From: Yamadazyma tenuis
Lineage: Eukaryota > Ascomycota > Pichiomycetes > Serinales > Debaryomycetaceae
NCBI RefSeq assembly: GCF_029203305.1
Contig: NC_089461.1
Location: 2,480,001 to 2,544,000, forward strand
Reading direction: 5' to 3'
Length of the DNA: 64,000 bases
The position numbers and the translations under genes were made by a program. This document shows, one piece after another, positions 10,301 to 17,276 of the stretch. Each line of letters begins with the position of its first letter. Within the stretch, counting starts at the first letter, position 1. The notes beneath the pieces were generated by a model. That model had not been told where the DNA came from. It searched no databases and saw only the letters and a list, made by a program, of their open reading frames with translations.

Positions 10301-10820
10301 GTACGAAGAAGGAATCTTTCGATTGAGTGGATCTGCTTCAACTATTCGACAGTTGAAAGAAGCGTTCAACAAGAAGTTTGACCTTGACTTGTTCGAAAAT
10401 GAATTGAAACCCGACATGCACACGGTTTCAGGATTGTTGAAGACGTACTTGCGGGAGTTACCATCACCCATCGTATCTGACAAAGGATATAGTGATTTGA
10501 GAAACATTGTGATGAACAACGGCAACACCGCTGCCACGTCGTTGAAATTCAAAGACTACTTCAACAATCTCAACAACCTCGACCGAGTGTACTACGACAC
10601 CAGTTACATTGTGTTGAAGTTTCTTAAGGAGATCATCAATAACAAAGACTCAAACAAGATGAACTTGAGGAATGTGTGCATTGTGTTTGTTCCCACCCTT
10701 AACATCTCACTAGATGTGATGAGCTTGCTCTTGATTGACTTCAATTGCATTTTCGAGGACGGGGATCCTATCCCTGATAACCAAAGAGAAGTGTTGGATT
10801 TGAATATCCCTAGCTTCTAG
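7341..10820 (+). CDS. BEM3: Bem3-type Rho GTPase-activating protein (PX-PH-RhoGAP)
   Basis: GTPase-activating protein for Cdc42, acting at polarity sites on membranes. 1159 residues (1128 in S. cerevisiae Bem3). A short N-terminal coiled coil (DKEYIERLLFEIKELKSTL) precedes a long Ser/Pro-rich linker. A PX-like domain lies near residues 580-676, a PH domain near 686-793 and the RhoGAP domain near 963-1153. The arginine finger sits in GIFRLSGSAS near residue 993. Position 293 holds nearby proline-rich segments that may bind SH3 domains (inference). The final codons and the 3' flank have a degenerate copy at 14766-14937. Confidence 0.93.
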   Translation: MDEVTPSHPNFDRSKLSDKEYIERLLFEIKELKSTLVRKDQLIQSLQGNGDSISDEPKKPESDIPQRSARRKIKESSADEQKLEPAEQMEVVPVSNSQSHSLAEENHLQKDVSMTSIQSDLSMGNISTSTSLDHPSGDARTLDGEIHSNRSSIYSDEGAKGISNVSEVTDETTPVFANDSTINDPVENSAIEDSALESEVSEVSEAQLEHRSLEEQDASGHLRPSKSSDPQNSANTSGIFQHKNHSASSFQSYRSRIKLPPTLQQQAQVKAALHQPGPGQSLTPTELSPNLAPLSQQQNVHHLPESQAFTYSPSLQQSPLVEPPRIPLPESPSKAAKNNVLLSGKSLPHSKTFKDLNIQTLKVTVPSPNREGNALRSPAVLNYQQPTNATNTLFPPGPHQFGQPIDALTRVDYPKPAGEEYKEIPRTPEAFYNSRALDEAEFNQGNLPEDTTSNMSSPVVPYSQYSQVSPATGYSYRGGLDYESESIRTPITTDFTSHDSIYNIRSASGSNRNLQAKNGGLNVMISNNSSYLVNRTMVNEDDGALFIKPEEFQTIALTVISTISNGNTQVQASTSLKRLDDIFITIAVNDRSTGKEMWRIKKSLNQLIAFDNEIRPTVEYFGLPVLPDKSLFFSTTPNKIDVRISGLQNYFNTLFVMPHIPHLILFRICKYLSLDFVNPLDEFKSGSRKEGYLVRKYKGLGTSWKVRWCQVDGPVLELYDQPGGSLLEQINLKHCQIGRQSNDSVAEDKGYRHAFLIMESHKSSKLSNSFPKHFFCAENDYERDEWVNALIDMSLVVDSNSTSTANSIKDDIAGYNVNFQTPRNYGSDYQDEPDYTNKTKSPVPSNVSYQTMDSLEKEKPTDKKGKKRSIFPFRTKGSNPNSSTSQLFDASNLVDSDLSNAIASSPNANSSFTSNSSHQNGTSATVVEDSSIQLYLDKMGLDEQVNKLIFGRELVQAYEISHHNFLGREVPSIIYRCIEFLLKTGAVYEEGIFRLSGSASTIRQLKEAFNKKFDLDLFENELKPDMHTVSGLLKTYLRELPSPIVSDKGYSDLRNIVMNNGNTAATSLKFKDYFNNLNNLDRVYYDTSYIVLKFLKEIINNKDSNKMNLRNVCIVFVPTLNISLDVMSLLLIDFNCIFEDGDPIPDNQREVLDLNIPSF

Positions 10821-10930
10821 TTTCAATTCTGTATTGTATTATAGTTTGTTAAATGCATAGCATTTTCTGAGACAAAGCGCTCTTGCCCATTGTGTACATA
10901 TCTTTGTGCCCTTGTCCGTACCCCCTGGCC

Positions 10931-14972: not shown

Positions 14973-17276
14973 ATGTCTGTGTACACTGATTTGCATCTCA
15001 CCTCCTGCAAATTTCATACAGCCTTACGCGCTAAAAAAGATGATAAGAAAAACCCCGGTGAGCAAGTGACATATTCTACACCCATGTTTCAACGGAAAAG
15101 ACCGCCGCAGCTAACGGTGCAAGAGGAGCTCAGGCAGACATACGCCGACTGCTGTAACCTCAGCATCAAGAACTTGACCCTAGAAGAAGATAATCGGGTG
15201 GAAGATGCTTTAAAAGGCTGGAAATCACTACATACGTCACTTTTGTTCAAGCTCGAACTATTCGAGAAAAGCATCACAAAAATGGGCCAGGAAGAGCTCG
15301 ATGTGTTCAATGAGTTGCGTTCCATCCGGGACCAGAACGTCAAGCATCTTATCCGTGTACAATTGAGAATGGACGAATTAAATAGGAGACAACTCAAATC
15401 TGCTTCCACCACCTCCGTGGCCAGTTCTACCTCCGGTAAATCCAACATGACGGTTCCATCGTTGCGCCTGGGGTCGGGAGGTATGAGAAACCTAAGCAAT
15501 GGCAACGTGCAAAAAAAGAAGATGCTCAAGTCGTTGAGACAGCAACCTCAGCAGAGCTCATTAAAGTCAAAGCATAACCAGCATCAAGCCAACACGGCCG
15601 CCAATGTGTCGTGGCAGAAGCCTTCTATAACCGTGGTGGACACCGGGGACGACGACGAAGCGTTTGACGACTTTGACCAGGACCTCGCGGTGGGGTGGGA
15701 CAAAATCAGCGACGAAGACGCCCACACGCCGCCGAATTTAATCGACTTGGACGGTGACTACTTCCAGCTCAGCCATTCAATGGAGAATTTGAGCCTCAAG
15801 CCCAAATCTCGCCATTCCAGCATGAGCAGCAACTCGAATTCATCTCCCAACAACTCGATCATGAACTTGCAACCGTTACGACCAGAGAAGCCCCAGAGCA
15901 AAAGCACACCAGATATACGTCCCCATGGCAATGGAGATGTCCCCAGTGGCGCCGGCTCCAAAACATCGACCAAGTCTCAAGTCCCAGCATCTTCAGAAAA
16001 GAAGTATATCTACAATAAGCCCAAGCCGATGAACATTAGTCGGCTTATGAAGAAGCCTCAAACCCCCCTGACGTCATCTACATCACCGAAGAAGGCCGCT
16101 ACTAGTACCAAACCAAAGGCAACAGCCCCTGCTAGATTGGGGCCTGCCCCAATAAAGAAGTCGAATATTACTTACAACTACGTTTCTTCCTCAAAGAAGA
16201 GCACTCGGGCCGAGTCACCAACGCCCACGTCTACACCGGTGCCTGCAAAAAAGCAAGCCAGTGATGAGTCGAGTGAGTCGGATGAAAATGAGGACTTTGA
16301 CATGCGAGATCTCCTAAACCCAAAGGTGCAGAATAAGGTGATTGAGCTGGTCAGAGGTATCGATGTGGATGCAGCCAAGCTGATTCTTAACGACATTGTG
16401 GTGCACGGAGACGAAGTGTACTGGGAAGACATTGTCGGGTTGGACAACGCAAAGAACTCGTTGAAAGAAGCAGTGGTGTATCCGTTTTTGCGGCCGGATT
16501 TGTTCAAGGGCTTGAGAGAACCTACTCGAGGTATGCTACTTTTTGGGCCTCCTGGGACCGGTAAAACGATGTTGGCACGGGCGGTGGCCACTGAGAGTAA
16601 GTCAACATTCTTCTCCATCACCGCCTCGTCCATTACGTCCAAGTACTTGGGAGAAAGTGAAAAATTGGTCAGGGCGTTGTTTGTTCTCGCCAAAAGATTA
16701 TCACCATCTATTGTGTTTATCGACGAAATCGACTCGTTGCTTGGGTCCAGAAACGAAGGAGAGCTCGAGTCCACCCGCCGAATCAAAAACGAGTTTTTGA
16801 TCCAATGGAGTGAATTGAGCAGTTCCACCACCAAGGAGGACGATGCCAATGAGCTCAAACATCAGGTTTTGATCCTCGGGGCCACCAACATGCCGTGGTC
16901 AATTGACGAGGCAGCACGAAGAAGGTTCGTCAAGAGACAGTACATCCCGTTACCCGAAGATGAAACTCGGGCGAATCAAGTGAAAAGGCTTCTCAAGTAC
17001 CAAAAACACACTCTCGAAGACGCAGATTTTCAAGAGATTATTAAATTGACCGCTCAATTTAGCGGAAGCGACATCACAGCTTTATGCAAGGATAGTGCGA
17101 TGGGGCCTTTACGGTCGCTTGGAGAATTGCTCTTGCTGACACCTACCGAGGAGATCCGACCCATGAACATGGATGACTTTCGCAACAGCTTAAAGTTTAT
17201 AAAGCCAAGTGTTCTGTACGAGAGTCTAAGTAAATATGAAGATTGGGCTAAGAAGTTTGGATCTCTGGGAGTATGA
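14973..17276 (+). CDS. SAP1: Sap1/Yta6-type AAA ATPase (meiotic clade)
   Basis: 767 residues from the ATG at 14973 (MSVYTDLHLTSC); the frame is open further upstream only through a GTG codon. The N-terminal part is charged with Ser/Pro-rich linkers. A single AAA domain occupies about residues 485-700, with Walker A GPPGTGKT (near 524), Walker B IVFIDEIDSLLGSR (near 583), sensor-1 ILGATNMPW and arginine-finger region EAARRRFVKR. It belongs to the fidgetin/spastin/katanin/Vps4 clade. S. cerevisiae has two such genes, SAP1 and YTA6, and I cannot tell which is the closer ortholog. The exact role is poorly known: Yta6 is cortical and Sap1 interacts with the Sin1 transcription factor. Confidence 0.85.
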   Translation: MSVYTDLHLTSCKFHTALRAKKDDKKNPGEQVTYSTPMFQRKRPPQLTVQEELRQTYADCCNLSIKNLTLEEDNRVEDALKGWKSLHTSLLFKLELFEKSITKMGQEELDVFNELRSIRDQNVKHLIRVQLRMDELNRRQLKSASTTSVASSTSGKSNMTVPSLRLGSGGMRNLSNGNVQKKKMLKSLRQQPQQSSLKSKHNQHQANTAANVSWQKPSITVVDTGDDDEAFDDFDQDLAVGWDKISDEDAHTPPNLIDLDGDYFQLSHSMENLSLKPKSRHSSMSSNSNSSPNNSIMNLQPLRPEKPQSKSTPDIRPHGNGDVPSGAGSKTSTKSQVPASSEKKYIYNKPKPMNISRLMKKPQTPLTSSTSPKKAATSTKPKATAPARLGPAPIKKSNITYNYVSSSKKSTRAESPTPTSTPVPAKKQASDESSESDENEDFDMRDLLNPKVQNKVIELVRGIDVDAAKLILNDIVVHGDEVYWEDIVGLDNAKNSLKEAVVYPFLRPDLFKGLREPTRGMLLFGPPGTGKTMLARAVATESKSTFFSITASSITSKYLGESEKLVRALFVLAKRLSPSIVFIDEIDSLLGSRNEGELESTRRIKNEFLIQWSELSSSTTKEDDANELKHQVLILGATNMPWSIDEAARRRFVKRQYIPLPEDETRANQVKRLLKYQKHTLEDADFQEIIKLTAQFSGSDITALCKDSAMGPLRSLGELLLLTPTEEIRPMNMDDFRNSLKFIKPSVLYESLSKYEDWAKKFGSLGV

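Follow-up and report, generated by a model that had tools for sequence, protein, structure and literature searches.

Gene order and features of the BEM3-SAP1 interval

The window, i.e., the whole 64,000-nucleotide stretch of DNA that was analysed, is C1:2480001-2544000 (C1 = NC_089461.1) of Yamadazyma tenuis, a CTG-code yeast whose assembly comprises 10.86 Mb in 8 contigs. Coordinates without a contig prefix are window positions. On the plus strand, BEM3 (7341-10820) is followed by an HYR/IFF-type gene (11805-14402) and then by SAP1. Residues 560-1159 of the BEM3 product are 100% identical to the Y. tenuis ATCC 10573 protein CANTEDRAFT_126477. By its Pfam matches the SAP1 of this locus is an AAA ATPase, not an aspartyl protease. 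The first-pass annotation had set its start at 14973; the start is probably 15084 (730 aa), because homologues align with the longer ORF over roughly its last 95% and one homologue begins at the matching place. The features of the interval are as follows.

7341-10820, plus strand: BEM3, intact, 1159 aa, with RhoGAP, PH and PX domains (Pfam)
10821-10915, plus strand: 3′ flank of BEM3, the left of the two copies of the intergenic DNA (16 differences in 88 columns against 14855-14942)
10933-11014, plus strand: SAP1 relic (partner 15262-15343), with an in-frame stop and about 300 bp missing upstream (blastn, shuffles, translation)
11009-11040, no strand: left junction zone, from SAP1-like to C6-like DNA (shuffle tests of 11015-11070)
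11040-11804, plus strand: 5′ flank and promoter of the adhesin gene, resembling C6:10180-11038 (alignment, K2P 0.21 over 654 columns from 11126)
11805-14402, plus strand: HYR/IFF-type cell wall protein gene, 865 aa, frame intact (PF11765, E=2.8e-77)
14403-14568, plus strand: 3′ flank of the adhesin gene, resembling C6:16556-16747 (27 differences in 159 columns)
14569-14759, minus strand: decayed 3′ stump of the sulfatase gene that runs towards HYR on C6 (compared with C6:16748-16936, 31 differences in 178 columns)
14760-14768, no strand: right junction zone, from sulfatase stump to BEM3 relic (alignment, shuffle tests)
14769-14854, plus strand: BEM3 3′-end relic (partner 10679-10820; blastn, shuffles, translation)
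14855-14942, plus strand: right copy of the duplicated intergenic DNA (blastn, finer alignment, shuffles)
15084-17276, plus strand: SAP1, AAA ATPase of the Vps4/meiotic-clade type, 730 aa, intact (Pfam, homologues, translation)

The HYR/IFF product is a putative adhesin. It carries an N-terminal Hyphal_reg_CWP domain (260 bits against a cut-off of 28), serine-rich tandem repeats are encoded at about 12860-13560, and its N- and C-terminal ends are hydrophobic as judged by eye.

Reciprocal relics of BEM3 and SAP1 flank the adhesin gene

Nucleotide alignment of the two flanks, which the first-pass annotation had proposed as a check, yielded three blastn blocks far above the shuffled controls: 10684-10760 against 14772-14836 (77 columns, 75%), 10841-10915 against 14868-14942 (75 columns, 87%), and 10933-11014 against 15262-15343 (82 columns, 80%). 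The BEM3 coding tail scored 91 (shuffle maximum 39), the intergenic part 110 (45) and the SAP1 relic 104 (46.5), and in each of four comparisons 0/500 dinucleotide shuffles were as high as the observed score. The 75-bp intergenic block reached E=2.2e-18 in a whole-genome search, and the SAP1 relic E=1e-14 with the database size set to that of the genome; a genome search with 10900-11060, the first pass of which was coarser, returned the query alone. The decayed piece of SAP1 claimed to follow intact BEM3 was therefore recovered (10933-11014), as was the decayed BEM3 end with its 3′ flank claimed to precede intact SAP1 (about 14769-14942).

Both relics are decayed. The SAP1 relic holds an in-frame stop; in the BEM3 relic all three frames are broken or shifted, and its alignment needs 57 gapped columns. 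The left copy is also short by about 300 bp, with 17 bp between its matches compared with 319 bp between those on the right, and the missing DNA corresponds to the SAP1 promoter region and about the first 59 SAP1 codons. The same order is held in both copies: BEM3 end, intergenic DNA, SAP1. Because each copy keeps this order, comparison of the copies supports the view that, before the event, BEM3 lay directly next to SAP1, in line with the earlier proposal of an ancestral BEM3-SAP1 neighbourhood whose junction was duplicated around the adhesin gene.

A diverged copy of a locus near a telomere lies between the relics

An own-genome search identified the DNA between the relics as a diverged copy of a locus close to the telomere of another contig, C6 (~10170-16960): 11126-12850 matches C6:10296-12069, and 13652-14749 matches C6:15832-16936. 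A telomere-type repeat of 24 bp, present in 59 copies, opens C6, whose HYR gene begins at position 11,039. Downstream of and convergent with this gene lies a sulfatase gene (C6:16748-18400, 550 aa) with matches to PF00884 and SGSH_C. Of four PF00884 matches in the genome it scores best and is alone in being full-length; one other passes the cut-off as a partial match. The likeness to C6 extends through the HYR 5′ flank and promoter, the gene, its 3′ flank and terminator, and a stump of the sulfatase gene, in which broken frames (14569-14759, minus strand) still carry C-terminal residues of the C6 sulfatase. Non-coding flanks as well as the gene are in this way copied from another chromosome, which is what defines an interchromosomal segmental duplication.

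Because the sulfatase is full-length on C6 and a mere stump on C1, copying ran from a C6-like locus to C1. The true donor may be another locus, to which C6 is a sister. BLAST of 10600-15600 against C6:1-30000 found no piece of BEM3 or SAP1 on the donor side.

Edges, sizes and relative ages

At the right edge, likeness to C6 extends as far as about 14759 and likeness to BEM3 begins at about 14769, leaving a gap within about 10 bp. Here 14767-14800 is clearly BEM3-like (0/500 shuffles); the last 21 bases of C6 likeness, 14750-14770, are weak when taken alone (6/500 mononucleotide shuffles reach the score). At the left edge, SAP1 likeness ends at 11014, and 11015-11070 is C6-like (0/500 shuffles) and not SAP1-like (184/500), such that the transition is confined to about 30 bp. 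The HYR/IFF gene had been said to lie exactly between the relics, and the relics indeed meet the insert within these distances. A target duplication of about 0.64 kb, in agreement with the earlier estimate of at least about 0.6 kb, encloses an insert of about 3.75 kb; the C6 counterpart measures about 6.8 kb, mainly because the repeat region is shorter on C1. Read directly from the DNA are the order BEM3, SAP1 relic, insert, BEM3 relic, SAP1, the likeness to C6 including the stump, and the near-abutting junctions. A divergence of 16-18% masks the original junction bases, so any microhomology is illegible and the junctions are placed within about 30 and 10 bp.

We considered whether the junctions coincide with recognizable landmarks. 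A telomere repeat as landing site was rejected, since the junctions score only 12-18 against the 24-bp telomere unit, compared with 42 and 57 at two interstitial matches. A tRNA gene as fork barrier was also rejected, as ARAGORN (bacterial settings) found no tRNA genes in 1-30000. No Rfam family reached its gathering score in 10600-15400.

The relics and the insert are equally diverged, as a single event predicts. Differences per aligned columns were 10/88 for BEM3, 16/88 for the intergenic part and 16/82 for SAP1, and, for the insert against C6, 119/654 for the 5′ flank, 27/159 for the 3′ flank and 31/178 for the sulfatase stump. Pooled, the relics (42/258) did not differ from insert flanks plus stump (177/991; p=0.58), and neither did the fairest pair, gene relics against gene stump (BEM3 and SAP1 26/170, sulfatase 31/178; p=0.66); the relics are short, and equality is unrejected rather than proven. 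For the HYR gene itself, comparison of C1 with C6 gave dS of 0.45 and 0.39 for the two ends. This range of 0.39-0.45 is about twice the relic distance (K2P 0.12-0.23); lower relic distances are expected because the relics are compared with constrained genes, and it is possible that the split of the insert from the C6 copy is older than the duplication. The corresponding dN/dS values were 0.48 and 0.30, and because these are below 1 they suggest that the HYR gene has been maintained under constraint in at least one copy.

BEM3 and SAP1 in related species

The first-pass annotation had also asked whether BEM3 and SAP1 are adjacent in related species with no HYR gene between them. In protein searches we compared 117 of 119 SAP1 rows with the best 120 of 1278 BEM3 rows; each row gives the longest contig of its cluster, and linkage is read from equal contig sizes, not from sequence. 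Among the matches listed, five relatives have BEM3 and SAP1 on contigs of the same size (7000, 14052, 35809, 75129 and 395561 bp, the last being [Candida] jaroonii), and all five lie within the ten best BEM3 matches. Chance equality of sizes is unlikely, because no pairs were off by one base and just three were within five bases. The 7,000-bp contig, for which both protein clusters represent three contigs and the pairing uses the longest, encodes BEM3 (1363 aa) and SAP1 (765 aa), whose ends match, and so has 6,390 bp of coding DNA. It has no room for the adhesin, because 610 bp remain and the adhesin frame is 2,598 bp long. In more distant species, among them Debaryomyces fabryi, Priceomyces carsonii and Candida jiufengensis, BEM3 and SAP1 are on contigs of different size. 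Equal contig sizes thus support adjacency of the two genes in close relatives only, and in one of these the answer to the earlier question is an interval too small for an adhesin gene.

HYR loci elsewhere in the genome

HYR genes were found in at least seven places in the genome, six of them 11-63 kb from a contig end and one at 248 kb; the BEM3-SAP1 interval on C1 lies 63 kb from the contig end. With flanks of 1.7-4 kb and E up to 0.01, direct repeats between the two flanks were detected at the C1 locus alone (1/7), and the flank-duplication signature was seen at 0/6 of the others.

The innermost locus (C3:1197294-1198295, 248 kb from the end) encodes an HYR-type protein of 333 aa that lacks a long repeat stalk. 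At C2:2124231-2131937 an HYR-type frame of 2568 aa lies beside one of 926 aa, both on the minus strand; the 3′ part of the very long C2 frame is 74% identical with the C-terminal part of the adhesin described here.

Copies of the 24-bp telomere unit also occur away from contig ends. Degenerate copies lie at C6 ~28200-28310, about 28 kb from the contig end. In the window, short intergenic matches at 26282-26302 and 40535-40580 lie upstream of a cytochrome b5-domain gene and a minus-strand zinc-type alcohol dehydrogenase gene; as a guess, they may be sites for a telomere/promoter protein.

Origin of the arrangement

The best explanation, to which we give a probability of about 0.8, is that an ancestral BEM3-SAP1 junction received a copy, about 3.75 kb long, of a telomere-proximal HYR/IFF locus ancestral to C6 ~10170-16960, with about 0.64 kb of the junction duplicated directly on both sides. 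We infer that duplication and insertion were one event. Its mechanism was likely replication template switching of the MMIR/MMBIR type, which predicts target duplication and insertion of a donor copy in one event. Events of this type are marked by microhomology or microsatellites at the junctions, by dependence on Pol32 and by independence of Rad52. The copying strand would have stopped within SAP1, at about codon 88, resumed synthesis on the C6 donor upstream of the HYR promoter, run on into the sulfatase gene, and switched back to BEM3 about 140 bp ahead of its stop codon. The redundant halves would then have decayed reciprocally, with loss of the SAP1 promoter and start at the left and of much of the BEM3 end at the right, such that the left copy would still serve the BEM3 3′ end and the right copy the SAP1 promoter. 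We propose tentatively, and hold it to be somewhat less probable than its opposite, that a single template-switch accident both duplicated the housekeeping interval and placed a whole subtelomeric adhesin unit in it, so that both neighbours kept their control regions.

A staggered break is unlikely but would also account for direct repeats abutting an insert in one event, as observed: end joining would capture a donor fragment, and fill-in of the single-stranded ends would yield the 0.64-kb repeats. It differs from the best explanation in the enzyme pathway alone, and it requires overhangs of about 0.6 kb and a free donor piece of 3.75-7 kb, neither of which is indicated by the data. Distinctly improbable is a two-step history in which the BEM3-SAP1 junction was duplicated in tandem and the adhesin cassette entered later exactly at the seam. 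The final order would be identical and the distances are compatible with a modest time gap, but with the relics as close to the insert as about 10 and 30 bp, two independent events at one seam would be needed, and relics and insert do not differ in divergence.

Two further readings are very improbable. Had an adhesin been ancestral between BEM3 and SAP1, been lost in relatives, and the relics arisen independently, it would be hard to see why in both copies the BEM3 end is followed by SAP1 with no intervening adhesin, why the insert holds the stump of a gene of which C6 has the full length, and why the contig of one relative is too small for an adhesin. Carriage by a transposon or other mobile element, which would leave a target site duplication, is matched by the direct repeats flanking the insert; at about 0.64 kb, however, these far exceed known target site duplications, PF11765 is the sole Pfam match in the inserted gene, no terminal repeats shared between the flanks of the C6 copy were detected, and the right end is cut within the sulfatase gene. 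We therefore rejected a transposon or retroelement as carrier.

Discussion

Template switching, the proposed source of the C1 locus, has a counterpart in segmental duplications of Saccharomyces cerevisiae, which the available part of one study attributes to Pol32-dependent replication-based repair, with an MMIR branch for which template switching is proposed at 5-10 bp of microhomology or microsatellites (PMC2518615). As there, a chromosome segment was copied elsewhere with junctions within genes. The S. cerevisiae duplications in that part of the study come from laboratory selection and are for the most part large, either tandem or interchromosomal, whereas the C1 locus is a natural copy of a single complete gene unit plus a neighbour's stump inside a short target duplication, with illegible microhomology. 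Human complex chromosomal insertions, from the excerpt at hand, are recent, germline and much larger (PMC5120786); the C1 event, in contrast, is old and in a yeast, its duplicates have decayed and its gene has been kept under constraint. In Candida auris too, as far as the excerpted report goes, HYR/IFF-like cell wall genes are enriched in subtelomeres that undergo structural turnover (PMC8128392), but the change there is subtelomeric deletion, and in Y. tenuis a copy moved between BEM3 and SAP1, at 63 kb from the contig end. Yeast synteny blocks are likewise described as containing single genes that were inserted between conserved neighbours (PMC2715888); in the portion of that account available these are bacterial genes without reciprocal neighbour relics, and the donor of the C1 insert is in the same genome. 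We found no description of the Y. tenuis BEM3-HYR-SAP1 locus in searches of the open-licence PubMed Central literature, and the locus adds a new, unusually legible natural case to a known class of rearrangements.

Near telomeres the turnover of adhesin families is rapid, and it can rarely be seen how one of their genes comes to lie in an internal interval. At the C1 locus the donor, both edges, the target duplication and the relative age can be read from one genome, and a foreign gene flanked by reciprocal relics of its two neighbours is a signature that can be searched for in other genomes. The arrangement suggests that the insertion was tolerated since the shared intergenic DNA was present twice. 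If this is true, self-duplication of the target would render such insertions harmless and let adhesin genes exit the subtelomeres.
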